Source of the DNA: Candidatus Altimarinota bacterium
GTDB lineage: Bacteria; Patescibacteriota; Gracilibacteria; UBA4473
Length of the DNA: 40,550 nucleotides
Assembly: GCA_021734525.1 (NCBI GenBank)
Contig: JAIPIW010000007.1
Span: forward strand, 1 to 40,550
Direction: 5' to 3'
A program made the translations under genes and the position numbers. Every line of letters starts with the position of its first letter. Positions within the stretch are counted from its first letter, which is position 1. Below are positions 14,893-40,221 of this stretch, one piece after another. Under the pieces are notes generated by a model. That model worked only from the letters and a program-made list of their open reading frames with translations, was not told the origin of the DNA and did no database searches.

Positions 14893-15891
14893 ATGAATAT
14901 CCTTCCTAAAATAAAAGAAGCAGACCTTGTTGGTCGGGGAGGAGCAGGATTTCCTACCTATTTAAAATGGGAAGGAATACAGAAAGTCAAAGCAGATAAG
15001 AAATATGTTATTTGTAATGCCTCAGAAGGGGAGTTGGGTCTTTTTAAGGATTTTTATATCCTCCAAAACCATGCGGACAGAGTTTTCAAAGGTTTACAAC
15101 TAGCTATGGATTTTATTGGCACCAAAAAAGCCTTCTTTAACTTTAATGGTGATTATTATAAGAAACTCAAACTGCAGATAGATGAACTAGTCGAAGAATA
15201 TGAAGAACGGGGATATCAGATTACTATTTTTAGAGAACATCCTTCCTACATTGGAGGAGAAGAAACAGCCCTTCTTAATGCTATTGAAGGCAAAAGAGTA
15301 GAACCACGTCTCAAACCTCCTTATCCGTCAGATAGAGGTCTCTTTGGTCAACCAACTTTGATTCATAATGTGGAGACTCTATATAATGTGGCTGACGTAG
15401 CTGAAGATAAATTTGAGAAAAAACGTTTTTACTGTCTTTCTTTCCCGCACAAAAAAGGAGAAGTACACCATTTACCAGCTAACTGGTCCATAAAGAAGAT
15501 TTTAGAAAAAACTAATAATATTCCGGACTTTCCTTATTTTGTCCAAATAGGAGGAAGTGCTAGTGGATTAGTACTTAATTCTTCTCAACTAGATAAACAG
15601 AAAATGATGGGAGCAGGATCTATAGAAATTTACAAAAAGAGTACTGATCCTCGTGAGCTATTACTGAAATGGTTTTCCTTCTATGATCAGGAAAGCTGCG
15701 GTAAATGTACTCCTTGTCGGGAAGGGACTTTCCAGCTTCGTAAAATGGTAGAAGAATCTAAGAACATTCCCTGGCAGAAAATGAAACCTATTTTAGAAGT
15801 ATTAGAAGAAACTTCTTTTTGTGCTTTAGGAAAATCTGTTCCGGTGCCAGTTTATAGTTTTTTAAAAAACGTTCTTAAAAAGAAATTATGA
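14893..15891 (+). CDS. NuoF/HydB-like NADH-oxidising flavoprotein subunit of hydrogenase
   Basis: It probably carries FMN and moves electrons between NAD(H) and the [FeFe] hydrogenase encoded next. Visible motifs are the NADH/FMN-binding GRGGAGFPT (14-22), GGEETALLNAIEG (121-133) and the 4Fe-4S ligands Cys269, Cys272, Cys275 (ESCGKCTPCREG) and Cys310. At 332 aa it is a minimal core: the N-terminal thioredoxin-like extension and the C-terminal ferredoxin domains of bifurcating HydB subunits are absent. No NuoE/HydC gene adjoins it. Its stop overlaps the hydrogenase start by 4 bp (ATGA), so the two products are translationally coupled. Confidence 0.92.
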   Translation: MNILPKIKEADLVGRGGAGFPTYLKWEGIQKVKADKKYVICNASEGELGLFKDFYILQNHADRVFKGLQLAMDFIGTKKAFFNFNGDYYKKLKLQIDELVEEYEERGYQITIFREHPSYIGGEETALLNAIEGKRVEPRLKPPYPSDRGLFGQPTLIHNVETLYNVADVAEDKFEKKRFYCLSFPHKKGEVHHLPANWSIKKILEKTNNIPDFPYFVQIGGSASGLVLNSSQLDKQKMMGAGSIEIYKKSTDPRELLLKWFSFYDQESCGKCTPCREGTFQLRKMVEESKNIPWQKMKPILEVLEETSFCALGKSVPVPVYSFLKNVLKKKL

Positions 15892-17594
15892 CTAAAGTGA
15901 CTATTGAGATTAACGGAAAGAAATATTCTGCTGAAAAAGGGGAGAGTATTTTGCAGGTAGCAATACGAAATAATATAGAAATTCCACACTTTTGTCATCA
16001 TGAGGATTTGTCCACTGACGCTAATTGTCGGACCTGTTTGGTACAAAAAGAAGGTGATGATAATGTCATGACATCTTGTACGCTCAAAGCAGAAGAAGGA
16101 TTAAAGGTTAAGACAGATACTCCTAAGGTGAAAAGATTGCGTAGGGAGAATATGGAACTACTTCTAGCTAAGTACGAAAAAAATGCTCCACTTTGTAAGG
16201 CAGGACACTTTTCCAAAACCTTGGAGTTAATGAAAAAATACGGTGTAAAGGGGGATAAGTATCAGAGGGATGAAGTTTGTCCGCTTCATAAGATGGGTAA
16301 TGCTGCTGAATTTGATCCTAGTATTTGTATTGCCTGTAACAAATGTGTGGAAATTTGTGAAAAAATTGGGATTAATTTCCTAAAGTTAGAAGGAAAAAAT
16401 TCTAGAACTCGTGTTACTTACAATAAGGACCCTAAGATAGATTGTATTTACTGTGGACAGTGTACGGCACACTGTCCAGTAGCAGCGGTACGAGAACAAG
16501 GTCACATAGATGCGGTAGAAAAAGTATTAAAAGACCCAAATAAGATTGTTATTGTTCAGACCGCTCCATCTGTTCGAGCCAGTATTGGGGAAGAATTTGG
16601 AGTAGAGATTGGAGTAGATCTAACTGAAAAATTAGCTACTGCTTATCGGATGATGGGTTTTGATCACGTTTTTGACGTTAACATGGGGGCAGATATTACT
16701 ACTATGGTAGAAGCACAGGAACTAGTAGAAAGATTGGAGAAAAATGAAGATTTACCAATGTTCACTTCTTGTTGTCCGGGTTGGGTAAAGTTTTTAGAAT
16801 TTTATCATCCAGAATTAATTCCACACCTGACCACTGCTCGTTCTCCGCAGATTCATTCTGGTGGGGCATATAAGACCTGGTGGGCAGAAAGAGAAGGGAT
16901 TGATCCTAGTAAAATTGTAGTAGTTTCTACCATGCCTTGTACTTCCAAAAAATATGAAGCTTCTTTCGATAAACTAAAAATTGATGGTCTTAAACCAGTA
17001 GATTACGTATTAACTACTAGGGAATTAGCAGTAATGCTCAAGGACAGAAAGATAGATCTTCCTAATCTCAAACCAAGTAAAATAGATAAAGAAGGTACTT
17101 ATTCTGGAGCGGCAGCTATCTATGGAGCATCTGGCGGAGTAATGGAGTCTGCTCTTAGAACCGCCTACTTCCTATTAACCGCTAAAGAATTAGATCCGAT
17201 AGAATTTAGACCTGTTAGGGGGATGGAAGGAATAAAAAAAGCCACCGTAAAGATTGGTAAGAGGAAATTGAAGTTAGGGGTAGTAGCTACTGCTAAGTAC
17301 GCTAGAGAAGTTATTTACGAATTAAAAAGTGATCCTACTGCCTATGATTATATAGAATTTATGGCCTGTCCGGGGGGGTGTATTGGAGGAGGTGGGCAAC
17401 CTATTCCTTCTACCGAACGTATAGTGGAACAAAGGATAAAAGGAATCTATAAAATAGATCACAATATGAAGATGCGTTGTGCTCATGAAAATCCCGTAGT
17501 GCAGGAATTTATGGCTTACGTTAAAAGATTGCCAGAACATAAGAAGCAGGAGATTTTATATACTTCTTTTTCTCAAAAAAAGAAGTTTGAATAA
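15888..17594 (+). CDS. [FeFe] hydrogenase, group A catalytic subunit
   Basis: It catalyses reversible proton reduction to H2. Domains in 568 aa: N-terminal 2Fe-2S ferredoxin (Cys36, 47, 50, 64); two 4Fe-4S clusters (Cys147/150/153/157 and Cys186/189/192/196); H-cluster domain with L1 TSCCPGW (293-299), L2 MPCTSKKYE (349-357) and L3 MACPGGCIGGGGQP (492-505). The proton-relay Cys296 is present, which argues for prototypical group A. The extra His-Cys3 4Fe-4S cluster expected after the 2Fe-2S domain cannot be found; the region 93-135 holds only scattered Cys. Maturases HydE, HydF and HydG are not in this window. Confidence 0.95.
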   Translation: MTKVTIEINGKKYSAEKGESILQVAIRNNIEIPHFCHHEDLSTDANCRTCLVQKEGDDNVMTSCTLKAEEGLKVKTDTPKVKRLRRENMELLLAKYEKNAPLCKAGHFSKTLELMKKYGVKGDKYQRDEVCPLHKMGNAAEFDPSICIACNKCVEICEKIGINFLKLEGKNSRTRVTYNKDPKIDCIYCGQCTAHCPVAAVREQGHIDAVEKVLKDPNKIVIVQTAPSVRASIGEEFGVEIGVDLTEKLATAYRMMGFDHVFDVNMGADITTMVEAQELVERLEKNEDLPMFTSCCPGWVKFLEFYHPELIPHLTTARSPQIHSGGAYKTWWAEREGIDPSKIVVVSTMPCTSKKYEASFDKLKIDGLKPVDYVLTTRELAVMLKDRKIDLPNLKPSKIDKEGTYSGAAAIYGASGGVMESALRTAYFLLTAKELDPIEFRPVRGMEGIKKATVKIGKRKLKLGVVATAKYAREVIYELKSDPTAYDYIEFMACPGGCIGGGGQPIPSTERIVEQRIKGIYKIDHNMKMRCAHENPVVQEFMAYVKRLPEHKKQEILYTSFSQKKKFE

Positions 17595-35184: not shown

Positions 35185-35973
35185 ATGAGTAATTCGGAAT
35201 TTAACTTTGGACTTCGTCCCCGTCGACCCTTCTGGAAAGACGCCCTAATGTTCTTGATGACAGTAGTTATGGTTTGGGGGGGAACACATATCTTTATGAA
35301 CTACAACGCCTTTGCGCAAGTAGCTTCTTTCAAATTCGATGAACTAAAAGCTTCTGTAATTCAGTCTTACGAGGACTATTCTAAACCAGAAAAAACTGGA
35401 ACTTTGAAACTTGAGAAAATAGAGGGGAAAAGACGACCTATTTTTAGAGACAAAACTCTTAAGCCAAAGAACCAAGCGAAAGAGACTTTTGAAACAATGT
35501 CTATTAATCCTTCAGATGATCGGATAGAGATTGCGAGGATTAATAAGAACGTTCCTCTAGTAGATGTTCCTAATCACCGGAATTGGTATCAGTTAGAAAG
35601 AAATATCCAAGGAGGATTACAAGAAGGGGTAGTAGTTCATCCTATTTCTAGGGAACCAGGACAAGAAGGCAACTTCTTTGTTACCGGACACTCTTCTTAT
35701 TACGCTTGGGATAAAGGAAGATTTAAAGATGTCTTTGCTCTACTACATGAAGTAAGAGTAGGGGACGTAGTATATGTGTATCGTAATGCGAAGAAATACA
35801 CCTATAAGATTGCGGAAAGAAGTGTAGTTGCTCCAACAGAAACTGGGATTCTTAATCAGCCAAACGATAAAAAGATCATCACTCTAATGACTTGTACTCC
35901 AATTGGAACTAACGAGAAGAGACTAGTTCTAGTAGGGAATCTAATAGAAGATCCTAAGGAAAATACTATTTAA
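35185..35973 (+). CDS. Sortase family transpeptidase
   Basis: A membrane-anchored enzyme that would attach surface proteins to the wall or join pilin subunits. One N-terminal transmembrane helix (about 18-36) and a C-terminal sortase beta-barrel (about 110-255) are visible. The catalytic triad is intact: His169 in FVTGHSSYY, Cys237 in LMTCTPIG and Arg246 in EKRLVLVG. No LPxTG-type substrate is encoded in this window. Its 3' end, from base 35783, is duplicated about 3.35 kb downstream at 39134-39313 on the far side of the cDPG operon. Sortase class cannot be fixed from sequence alone. Confidence 0.92.
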   Translation: MSNSEFNFGLRPRRPFWKDALMFLMTVVMVWGGTHIFMNYNAFAQVASFKFDELKASVIQSYEDYSKPEKTGTLKLEKIEGKRRPIFRDKTLKPKNQAKETFETMSINPSDDRIEIARINKNVPLVDVPNHRNWYQLERNIQGGLQEGVVVHPISREPGQEGNFFVTGHSSYYAWDKGRFKDVFALLHEVRVGDVVYVYRNAKKYTYKIAERSVVAPTETGILNQPNDKKIITLMTCTPIGTNEKRLVLVGNLIEDPKENTI

Positions 35974-36200: not shown

Positions 36201-36464
36201 TTATTTTACCTTTCGGGTAGGCACTTTGCGCGCTTTCGGATTTCTTTGAGACTCAAGAAACTTTTTGAGCACTTCAGGATTATTTTTTTTTACCCGAGCT
36301 TTGACTGTGGATTTTTTATTTTTCTGAGCTACTTCTTCTGGAGAGAGTTGAATGTATTGTTTCGCTTGCTCTGTGAAATTTTTTGTCGACCGTTTGACGG
36401 CAAAAGCAGAAGATATCATTAGAACAGAGAATAAAAATGCGACACCGAGAATCTTTGTATTCAT
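36201..36464 (-). CDS. Small secreted basic protein, 87 aa
   Basis: A signal peptide (MNTKILGVAFLFSVLMISSAFA) precedes a strongly basic mature chain (KRSTKNFTEQAKQYIQ, KKSTVKARVKKNNPE, and a KARKVPTRKVK tail). I chose the ATG at 36464; a longer frame from 36485 adds a few hydrophobic residues before the signal. The mature part has no family I recognise; it could bind nucleic acid or acidic wall polymers. It lies at the left edge of the GC-richer segment and is the only gene between the sortase and the cDPG operon. About 230 bp before it (35974-36200) hold only short hairpins. Confidence 0.6.
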   Translation of the reverse strand: MNTKILGVAFLFSVLMISSAFAVKRSTKNFTEQAKQYIQLSPEEVAQKNKKSTVKARVKKNNPEVLKKFLESQRNPKARKVPTRKVK

Positions 36465-36637
36465 TTGTATAAAAAGGATAAGCAAGGAGAATGTAGACCT
36501 TCTACATACCTTAGCAAGGGGGGATATCCCAAATTCTCTCGCGTAAAAAAAGTAATATTTTAAATATATATTTCGTTTTTTTTAAAAATATCATCCCCAT
36601 AATGATCGATAAAAATAAATGCAAAAATTTTTCTTTC

Positions 36638-38008
36638 TTACTTTCTATTTCTCTTTTTTTTCACCATTCCTAAAATTTCTTTCTTCAAATCTTTCACATT
36701 CCCACCCTTATTGACGGTCATGATGATATTGTCGAGAAATACTGTATTTAAACCCAATTTTATATCTTCTTTGGCGACAATGGCGATTGCTGCGGCTTTA
36801 AGTTCGGTTGCGACGACGTCTATGTTTTTTAGTTTTTTGAGCTCTTTGATAAGTAACGGACGGACGGATAAATTGTTTGTCATGCCTTTTACTTTGCAGT
36901 GATATTTTTTTTCAAGATAGGTTTTTAGAAATGGCAACGCCTTGTTCGGAGCAGTGAGAGCGAGAAATACTTTTTTTCCTTTCAGAGAAAAAGAAATTGG
37001 TTTTGGTCGTAGGACGGTTGTGGCAATCCGTATACGAGGTTTTATTTCCCGAATTCGGTGAATAATCCGTTTGATTTTTGCATTGTCTACCAAAAAATCT
37101 TCGCACATATTGAGGATGACTAGATCTGTGTATAGAACACGTAAGGGGGTAAGATAGCCTTCAAGAATCTCCAAGGGTTGTGTCGCGTCCATGACGAGAA
37201 TTGTCTTGTCGGTTTTGATTTCCGGTACTGTCGCTCCGCTTCCTTCAATGACGACGGTTTTTACTTTATTGTCCTTTTCCGCCATGTGGACACCGGTATC
37301 CAGTACAGTTATCATGGCTTTTCCGCTCATTCCTCCGCCACACCTTCGACAACCAAAGGTTTTTACCTGTGCCGTGAGTGCATCTTCAAAACAATCAGAT
37401 GAGGCGTGCATGCCCTGTGCATCAATATTTAAAAGATACTCCAAATTCACTTGTATTTTGTCGCCCTCCACTACAATTGGTTTGGTTGATCCCCCCCGGC
37501 TCAGGGTGATAATAGCGGGTGCAAGATGTGCCTCTCGTAGTGTTCGTCCGATAAAACCTCCGATGGCGGTTTTTCCGATACGCTTCCCTGTTCCCCAAAT
37601 GGCGAGCGAAGGTTTGGTGAGTATTTTTTTGAAGATTAACGGATCAAATTGGAAATCTGATCCTTTGTACGTCGCTCCATGATAAAGCACATGGCTTGCC
37701 ACTTCGAAACGGGTCATGTAGTCCATAATCGGCTCATCAGATAAATCCAAAACGAGCGAAATGGGATGTTTCTTTAGAATACTATCGATTGCCCTACAAT
37801 CTGGTTTATTCTCATTATTAGCAAAAAATACTGGGTAAGGAAGCTCTTTTTTGACATCTTTTGGTGTTCCAATTTTTTCCGTTCCGCCGATAAAAATCAG
37901 ATATTGAATGTCATACTGTTTGGAGATTTGCATCAAAGACTCCTTAAGGTTCGGTAGGTAGTGTTCCCCGTCGACAAGACAAGCGATTGCTTTCTTTTTT
38001 AGTATCAT
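36638..38008 (-). CDS. cpgS: Cyclic 2,3-diphosphoglycerate synthetase
   Basis: It closes 2,3-diphosphoglycerate to cyclic 2,3-diphosphoglycerate (cDPG) using ATP, the last step of the pathway known from thermophilic methanogens, where cDPG protects proteins and stores phosphate. At 456 aa it has the family's length. Landmarks: N-terminal CLVDGEHYLPNLKESL and FIGGTEKIGTPKDVKKELPYP (quoted as FIGGTEKIG), P-loop GTGKRIGKTA (139-148), TLSRGGSTKP, CRRCGGGMSGKAM and VIEGSGATVPEI. No signal or membrane segment. It overlaps the kinase gene by 4 bp (ATGA). Codon use is GC-richer than the flanking genes, which indicates acquisition by transfer. Confidence 0.9.
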   Translation of the reverse strand: MILKKKAIACLVDGEHYLPNLKESLMQISKQYDIQYLIFIGGTEKIGTPKDVKKELPYPVFFANNENKPDCRAIDSILKKHPISLVLDLSDEPIMDYMTRFEVASHVLYHGATYKGSDFQFDPLIFKKILTKPSLAIWGTGKRIGKTAIGGFIGRTLREAHLAPAIITLSRGGSTKPIVVEGDKIQVNLEYLLNIDAQGMHASSDCFEDALTAQVKTFGCRRCGGGMSGKAMITVLDTGVHMAEKDNKVKTVVIEGSGATVPEIKTDKTILVMDATQPLEILEGYLTPLRVLYTDLVILNMCEDFLVDNAKIKRIIHRIREIKPRIRIATTVLRPKPISFSLKGKKVFLALTAPNKALPFLKTYLEKKYHCKVKGMTNNLSVRPLLIKELKKLKNIDVVATELKAAAIAIVAKEDIKLGLNTVFLDNIIMTVNKGGNVKDLKKEILGMVKKKRNRK

Positions 38009-38901
38009 TTTTTCTTTTTTTTACTGTAGAACAGTTCATAGATAACATTTAAAATCTCTTTTTCTGCGTGGTGGATGCTGTAATTTTCAATTACTGGAAT
38101 TTTGTTTTTTTTCGCTTGGGAAAAAAGATAATCTCGAATTGTTCGGATTTCTCGAAAATGATCGATGTATTTCTTTTTTGCCCGATTTGCATTCTGGAGT
38201 TGGCGCGTGAGAAAATGTTGTCGGTGTTTTTCTTCTTGATCCACATCCAAAAGTACGGGAATGATTGTTGCTTTGTGTTCGTACTTTGAAAGAAAGTTAA
38301 TAATCCCTGGCACTAGATGCACTCCTTCGATGACAATATTCATTTTTTCTTTGATCGCTCTTTTGATGACTGCTTCAACACCGTAAATAACCTTTCGAGA
38401 TTGAGACAAAAATCCGTAAATTAGAGCGTCTTCATGTGAATGGATGTGCTCCATCAGCTCGCCGGTTTCATAGGTTGAGACGTTAAGAAGGGGCTCGATT
38501 CTTTTTGGTAGAAATCCTCGAATCACTTCTCGTACGGAATCTGTACCAAGAATTTGGTTTATTTCCAAAAGCCAACCCAATCGTACTGCCATAGTAGATG
38601 TTCCAATACCGGTACTTCCGCCGAGAAGTATAATAAGGGGCTTATTTTTTCGCATAATACCTCTCCAATTTCGGTACCGATCAAGGAGTTCGGGGTATTT
38701 TTCCTTAATGATTTTTATTACTTTTCTCTCCAATTTTTTTTCTGTTTTCGCTTGTCCTTTTATATCCTCCCAGATTCCATGTGTGATTTGATATGCCTTG
38801 TAGCGTGGTATTCCTGCTCGCACCAGCGACCGCACCAAGAGATCACTGCTGTAGTATGGATGAATGATGTTTTCTATTCCTGCAGAAAGGTGTTTTTTCA
38901 T
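38005..38901 (-). CDS. pgk2: 2-phosphoglycerate kinase (archaeal type)
   Basis: It phosphorylates 2-phosphoglycerate to 2,3-diphosphoglycerate, the substrate of the synthetase encoded next. Start ATG 38901 gives 298 aa; a TTG frame from 38952 lies in the promoter. The N-terminal 75 residues form an ATP-cone-like domain (YYSSDLLVRSLVRAGI, then AYQITHGIWEDIKGQ). The kinase domain has P-loop GGSTGIGTSTMAVRLGW (94-110), where Thr replaces the usual Lys as in archaeal 2PGK, then ILGTDSVREVIRGFL and IVIEGVHLVPG. It is the first gene of a two-gene operon and has a clear promoter. Confidence 0.88.
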   Translation of the reverse strand: MKKHLSAGIENIIHPYYSSDLLVRSLVRAGIPRYKAYQITHGIWEDIKGQAKTEKKLERKVIKIIKEKYPELLDRYRNWRGIMRKNKPLIILLGGSTGIGTSTMAVRLGWLLEINQILGTDSVREVIRGFLPKRIEPLLNVSTYETGELMEHIHSHEDALIYGFLSQSRKVIYGVEAVIKRAIKEKMNIVIEGVHLVPGIINFLSKYEHKATIIPVLLDVDQEEKHRQHFLTRQLQNANRAKKKYIDHFREIRTIRDYLFSQAKKNKIPVIENYSIHHAEKEILNVIYELFYSKKKKK

Positions 38902-38920: not shown

Positions 38921-38949
38921 ATTATACCATAAACATGGGAAAAATCCAA
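38921..38949 (-). promoter_or_regulatory. Promoter of the cDPG operon
   Basis: Read on the minus strand: TTGGAT, 17-bp spacer, TATAAT preceded by TGG (near extended -10). The -10 ends 19 bp before the ATG at 38901. It is a bacterial-type promoter, so the genes are adapted to expression here. Confidence 0.75.
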
Positions 38950-39133
38950 CATAAACCATAAAGAAAACTGTTCCGTTCTGATGATAAGAATGTGGGATAT
39001 TTTTTTCGAAGTGGATATAAGGAAAGGATAGAGTGCACAATAAAGACGTCTTTGTTTTTCCCTATGAAAACATTTTTTCTTTGTGATATATTATCGTGCC
39101 AGATTACTCTTGGTTTTAGCCACGAGGCGAATG

Positions 39134-39313
39134 GTAATGCGAAGAAGTACACCTATAAGATTGCGGAAAGAAGTGTAGTTGCTCCAACAGAAACTGGGAT
39201 TCTTATATCAGCCAAACGATAAAAAGATCATCATTCTAATGACTTGTACTCCAATTGGAACTAACGAGAAGAGACTAGTTTTGGTAGGAAATTTAGTGGA
39301 AGACTCTATCTAA
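39134..39313 (+). pseudogene. Sortase 3'-end fragment, frameshifted
   Basis: About 170 bp repeat the end of the sortase gene (35783 onward). The first part is nearly identical; then one extra T (GGATTCTTATATCAGCC against GGATTCTTAATCAGCC) shifts the frame. The remainder still encodes LMTCTPIGTNEKRLVLVGN, including the catalytic Cys and Arg, with mostly synonymous changes, and ends at its own stop 39311-39313. The missing 5' two-thirds of the gene would lie where the foreign segment now is. It is probably the stump of a second, paralogous sortase. Confidence 0.85.
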
Positions 39314-39590
39314 TCTATTATTAGGATCAATATCGATTAAAGAAAAGCATTGTATTAACAATCTATTTTTTAGGAGAAACCCCAAATAAAATTACTATAA
39401 AAGAGAACTGGTCCATAAATTAAAGCAAAGGACAGTGGGTTCTCAATAGAAGTAAGGTTTTCAATCAATTGCTTGCTTTGCTTAATAAAATTTAAAATTA
39501 TAATAAAAATATTAAGTAGTAAAGTTAGATATAAAGAGTGTTTTGTATAGGCAATATTCTTGCTTTTGATATAGATAAGAGGAGGGTCAA
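39314..39590. other. AT-rich gap without a gene
   Basis: About 280 bp between the sortase stump and the repeat-protein gene. I see no ORF, tRNA or strong hairpin; a promoter for the gene at 39595 should lie in the second half. A Shine-Dalgarno AGGAGG (39580-39585) is clear. Confidence 0.5.
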
Positions 39591-39594
39591 TACT

Positions 39595-40221
39595 ATGAAA
39601 TATTTTTATACTTTCTTTTCGTCGCTCTTGTGTTCTTTTCTTCTTACTCCTCTCGGAGTTTCTGCTCTTAACTCAACAGATAAATCTAAACTATATAAAC
39701 TGGAACACAGTACCTTCAATCCGACTCTCCGAGGAGAAATTTCTGAACAATGGGATTATAGCCGAATTGAACATAGTACTTTTAACCCTGATTTTAGAGG
39801 AACAACTTCTCAAGAATTAGATGATACTAGACTAGAAGAAAGTACTTTCAATCCTGACTTTCAAGGAAAAACCTCTAAAGAATTAAACAAATACAAACTC
39901 AAACACAGTACTTTTAATCCTGATTTTCGAGGAGAAACAGTTGAAGAATTTAATGAACATAGTACCTTTGATCCTGATTTTCAAGGGAAAACATCAAAAG
40001 AATTAGATGATAAATACAGATTAGAGCACAGTACCTTCAATCCAGCTTATTATGAAAAAAAATATCTTTCTGAAGTTTATCCAAAAGCAGTAGTTAATAA
40101 TCGTGATAAAGTTCTTACCATCAAAGAAAATTTCTTTTCAGGAAGGATTCGGGCAGTACGTCCCCATCTTCCCTCAATAAGAGCAAATTTTAACGTTAAT
40201 CGATCTATTCCTCGACAATAA
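39595..40221 (+). CDS. Secreted protein with six HSTFNPDF repeats
   Basis: This 208-aa exported protein has a signal peptide (1-24, FLLTPLGVSA) and then six tandem units with consensus (H/E)STFNPDFxGxTSxELDxxRLE, beginning at residues 38, 60, 82, 104, 122 and 145 (spacing 22, 22, 22, 18, 23). The tail after about 152 is non-repetitive and basic. The start at 39595 has a strong AGGAGG nine bases upstream, better than the frame start at 39538. The repeats look like a polar surface or matrix-binding motif; function and family are unknown. No sortase signal is visible. A shared hairpin terminator follows. Confidence 0.8.
   Translation: MKYFYTFFSSLLCSFLLTPLGVSALNSTDKSKLYKLEHSTFNPTLRGEISEQWDYSRIEHSTFNPDFRGTTSQELDDTRLEESTFNPDFQGKTSKELNKYKLKHSTFNPDFRGETVEEFNEHSTFDPDFQGKTSKELDDKYRLEHSTFNPAYYEKKYLSEVYPKAVVNNRDKVLTIKENFFSGRIRAVRPHLPSIRANFNVNRSIPRQ

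Follow-up and report, generated by a model that had tools for sequence, protein, structure and literature searches.

The two genes described here most probably form a bacterial operon for the synthesis of cyclic 2,3-diphosphoglycerate (cDPG) that has spread laterally; in it, 2-phosphoglycerate kinase (2PGK) would act first and cDPG synthetase (cDPGS) second. They lie in a stretch of 40,550 nucleotides (the window), contig C7 of the metagenome-assembled genome (MAG) G000 (934.6 kb, 89.9% complete). An earlier note, made from the sequence alone, had proposed that both steps to cDPG are encoded at this locus. Our searches agree with it: cDPGS matches the solved structures PDB 8ork/8oru with E 1.9e-114, 2PGK matches the model PRK04220 with E 1.3e-73, and neither gene was placed in an unrelated P-loop family. 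As judged by these comparisons, the enzyme assignment of the pair is strong. The unit comprises the following features.

36638..38008, minus strand: cDPGS, 456 aa, second gene of the unit
38005..38901, minus strand: 2PGK, 298 aa, first gene of the unit
38005..38008, minus strand: ATGA overlap of the 2PGK stop (TGA) and the cDPGS start (ATG), read from the sequence
38921..38926, minus strand: -10 box, a perfect TATAAT lying about 20 nt before the 2PGK start

Both minus-strand frames are present and overlap as had been described. The ATGA overlap makes translational coupling of 2PGK and cDPGS likely. The start of 2PGK is at 38901, where the starts of its relatives align, and not at 38952. The bacterial promoter is less convincing than had been claimed: the -10 box is perfect, but the candidate -35 element (TTGGAT, with a 17-nt spacer to the -10) matches the consensus at 3 of 6 positions, and promoter-like sites in the region occur at about chance level (13 vs 9.4 ± 2.9 in shuffles, by consensus scan). 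Just downstream of cDPGS, the window encodes a putative secreted protein of 94 aa (36201-36485, minus strand); a relative with 49% identity is found in G673 (L042:2263-2463), about 8 kb from the pair of that genome.

Distribution and descent of the pair

Among 380 genomes spread over the phylum, cDPGS was present in this one only. Of 353 class genomes, five had the full-length two-gene unit, and in a sixth (G604) cDPGS is cut by a contig end. In the class survey, full-length 2PGK was found in exactly the five cDPGS genomes and never without cDPGS; it lies directly upstream of cDPGS in all five genomes where the site is visible. Other genomes gave 2PGK-like matches (about 200 aa, 25-93 bits) that are without the N-terminal domain and were left out of this count. 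A cDPGS match in G596 (25%, E 6e-4) was rejected as spurious. Carriage by phages or plasmids was also rejected, since searches of phages, plasmids, and viral contigs gave no cDPGS. In three relatives (G502, G490, and G501; L020, L024, and L028), the frames of 2PGK-like kinases contain 6-12 in-frame TGA codons, a pattern that fits reading of TGA as glycine; in the window genome, TGA is a stop.

The earlier note would have given up its reading for a pair that is vertically inherited and common across the lineage; the pair is rare and is not congruent with host genes. Two carriers of one genus, G680 ('Ca. Peregrinibacteria bacterium fen_1329', from the same class as the host) and G681, are 89% identical in GlyRS, 64% in cDPGS, and 51% in 2PGK. 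Between G680 and the window, cDPGS is 70% identical though GlyRS is only 53% identical. The neighbourhood of the pair differs in every genome. Because cDPGS and 2PGK of G680 and G681 diverge beyond GlyRS and stand in unrelated neighbourhoods, the unit seems, from these sequence comparisons, to move laterally among rare members of the class. Misbinning in G680 and G681 is unlikely, because the genes beside their pairs fit that genus: PilB beside the G681 pair is 79% identical to G680 PilB, and VirB4 beside the G680 pair is 95% identical to G681 VirB4.

Descent of the pair from an ancestor of the class, with vertical inheritance and loss in most lineages, would agree with several features of the trees. 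All six cDPGS sequences from the candidate phyla radiation (CPR) group as a single clade (100/100) when set against two outgroups, a clade of G680 and G681 cDPGS is not rejected by the AU test (p 0.18), and the 2PGK tree of five sequences has a branch with G680 and G681 on one side. Given the AU result, the case for lateral movement rests on branch lengths and not on topology. These lengths argue against vertical descent, as within the genus the divergence of cDPGS and of 2PGK is several-fold that of GlyRS, PilB or VirB4, and cDPGS is less diverged than GlyRS across families; synteny is absent, and losses would be needed in about 98% of the sampled genomes. We therefore regard an ancestral origin as unlikely, and lateral spread of the operon remains the preferred reading. 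The donor was not traced by the one-protein contig scan, which reached only close relatives, or by the genome searches, which were made within the phylum.

In the window, the two-gene unit is flanked on one side by an intact sortase gene and on the other by a frameshifted copy of the sortase 3' end.

35780..35952, plus strand: left direct-repeat copy, at the 3' end within the intact sortase gene (35185-35973), 94% identical to 39131-39304
39131..39304, plus strand: right direct-repeat copy, a frameshifted sortase 3'-end fragment (173-nt copy, 94% identical)
39087..39135, plus strand: relic of a multicopy transposon-like repeat end, 49 nt, abutting the right repeat copy

The direct repeats and the transposon relic fit integration at the sortase gene. 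The transposon-like end has the hairpin CTCGTGGCTTTAGCCACGAG and terminates five other G000 contigs (C3, C27, C37, C38, and C41), with about 138 nt identical in the five contig ends; it is probably the cause of the assembly breaks and, by its look, is probably IS200/IS605-like. Such direct repeats were not seen in the other pair-bearing genomes. In a search for an empty site, the contig of the same-genus genome G674 was seen to end about 424 bp past the sortase and gave no match; a search for the G673 insertion site through a neighbouring antiporter returned distant homologues only. Beside the sortase fragment, the window encodes a secreted-looking repeat protein (39538-40221), in which a 22-aa HSTFNPDFRG unit recurs imperfectly about six times; the protein had no Pfam match and no relative in the loci compared.

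Identity of the two enzymes

Over its full length, cDPGS is 44% identical to the Methanothermus fervidus enzyme, and residues 6-448 align with 5-451 of 8ork, including the unique N-terminal domain of about 127 aa. A second structure, PDB 9sxb, was matched with E 8.6e-101. The two proteins share a two-domain full-length alignment, the Walker A motif GTGKRIGKT, and 11 of the 12 published contact residues for 2,3-DPG, ADP, and Mg. The published residues matched are E44, K45, K142, R143, K146, T147, D205, E303, T352, E402, and K404; in the comparison with the solved enzyme the conserved residues are E45, K46, K145, R146, K149, T150, D208, E305, T353, E404, and K406. The twelfth, published as P335, misfits the chain numbering; a proline close by, P337, is conserved. 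The window protein differs from the M. fervidus enzyme in sequence (44% identity), in its bacterial host of mesophilic type, and in the overlap of its gene with 2PGK.

The best NCBIfam model for 2PGK is PRK04220 (248 bits), in a near full-length match of residues 17-297 to positions 17-298 of 306 that includes the all-helical N-terminal domain. Like the methanogen 2PGK described by this model, the window protein joins this domain to a P-loop kinase, and it has the GTS-type P-loop that the earlier note had pointed out (GSTGIGTST, residues 95-103). The predicted fold, a moderate model (pLDDT 74), consists of a helical N-terminal domain and an NMP-kinase-like P-loop domain, and matches NMP-kinase-like folds only. 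Of the ATP-cone-like domain that had also been claimed, the architecture alone holds; a Pfam ATP-cone match was not obtained. Unlike the methanogen enzyme, 2PGK does not reach the curated equivalog cut-off of PRK04220 (343 bits), and neither do its four CPR relatives (244-250 bits); only one of the control genomes passed it. For this reason, we call the protein a '2PGK-type kinase', which by its scores is a divergent branch and stands formally outside the equivalog. The kinase family is known in bacteria from the 2PGK-like genes of Thermus and Deinococcus (PRK12337, COG2074; PMC1274311), whose model scores the window protein lower (204 vs 248 bits). PRK12338 gave 158 bits, and PRK12339 (mevalonate-3-phosphate 5-kinase) gave 79 bits against a curated cut-off of 250.

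The score below the cut-off, together with related kinases that act on mevalonate-3-phosphate, could mean that the proteins have shifted to another substrate, such as another phosphorylated hydroxy acid, while keeping their folds and ATP sites. However, the substrate-contact residues E44, K45, K142, and R143 of cDPGS are all kept, and in each of the five kinases (2PGK and its four relatives) PRK04220 outscores PRK12339 by about 160-190 bits, so that we consider such a shift improbable.

Host, proposed pathway and possible role of cDPG

The host is a fermenter of Gracilibacteria/Peregrinibacteria type. Its family includes G673, 'Ca. Gracilibacteria bacterium Tobar12.5m-G38', which bears out the CPR-like host first proposed. 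To judge from NuoF-like and FeFe-hydrogenase genes that overlap by ATGA (window 14893-17594), it is fermentative and anaerobic. The IVYWREL fraction of its proteome is 0.398, which by a published regression we take to correspond to growth at about 38 °C, and the 16S G+C content is 49.7%; from this composition the host is apparently a mesophile. With a median pI of 6.4, the proteome shows no salt-in signature. G673 and G680 come apparently from a lake and a fen, not from hot springs.

The genome encodes iPGM (G000:C10:35196-36662, a 507-aa frame detected by profile) and, by motif, enolase, PGK, GAPDH, and pyruvate kinase (PK). In the proposed pathway, 2PGK would convert ATP and 2-phosphoglycerate (2PG), an intermediate of glycolysis that iPGM makes and enolase uses, to 2,3-bisphosphoglycerate (2,3-BPG); cDPGS would then close the pyrophosphate ring with a second ATP to give cDPG, ADP, and Pi. 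These reactions are established for M. fervidus (PMC10690619, PMC12136491). We infer that both enzymes are active in this host.

Since 2,3-BPG is both the pathway intermediate and the classical cofactor of dPGM, 2PGK might make it to prime a 2,3-BPG-dependent phosphoglycerate mutase, with cDPGS secondary. However, the host has iPGM, its histidine-phosphatase domains are only inserts within IleRS and ValRS, and therefore 2,3-BPG is not needed as a mutase cofactor; a free-standing mutase of this kind was not found in the 89.9% complete genome. Catalytic amounts of cofactor would also leave the strict linkage to cDPGS unexplained, and this highly improbable reading is already largely refuted. The inserted domains (PF00300) were detected with E 9e-32 in IleRS (1223 aa; G000:C41:22630-26301; L113:2630-6301, minus strand) and with E 8e-26 in ValRS (965 aa; G000:C30:360-3257; L077:360-3257, minus strand); the pairing of IleRS with a histidine phosphatase was not found in the literature searched. 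That the pair is archaeal DNA, brought in by a chimeric or wrongly binned contig, is scarcely credible. The pair does lie in a MAG, near a contig end and beside repeats, but its contig also holds a block of GlyRS, TrpRS, and sortase with synteny in family members and is therefore not archaeal; five other bins hold cDPGS 58-76% identical to that of the window, two of them beside genes verified as host-type.

With the cDPG operon as the preferred reading, the compound would accumulate as a reversible reserve of phosphate, energy, and carbon that also balances K+, and not as a thermoprotectant. Storage combined with a K+ counter-ion function is in our judgement the likeliest role, with about an even chance, because the host is a mesophilic fermenter with an FeFe hydrogenase in the window; a role as an anionic osmolyte alone would come next and is rather doubtful. 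Thermoprotection is unlikely in view of the IVYWREL and 16S G+C values. No known cDPG-degrading gene was identified near the pair. Published cDPG accumulators hold 0.07-1 M, levels that a 0.9-Mb fermenter may not afford. Methanobrevibacter smithii is a mesophile. M. smithii has cDPG too, and in archaea the compound is a thermoprotectant and also a fast-turnover store of carbon, phosphate, and energy (PMC1224877); storage and reversibility have been described (PMC1224877, PMC10690619).

It has been stated that cDPG is confined to hyperthermophilic methanogens and that cDPGS occurs nowhere else (PMC10690619); cDPG was also reported in thermophilic ammonia-oxidising archaea (PMC5797428, PMC7819960). 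The putative pair in CPR bacteria contradicts the statement on cDPGS. The enzymes are already known, and automatic annotations of pair-bearing MAGs may already carry their names; what appears to be new is the laterally spread operon in CPR bacteria, of which no report was found in the literature searched. The wider proposal, that a mobile two-gene cDPG cassette is passed around among mesophilic CPR bacteria and provides a phosphate and energy reserve, and that cDPG is neither specific to archaea nor primarily a thermoprotectant, we hold with as much doubt as belief. If the pathway is intact in these reduced, apparently mesophilic bacteria, cDPG would extend to another domain; this would speak against a general role in heat protection, and would make mesophilic enzymes available for an industrially interesting compound.
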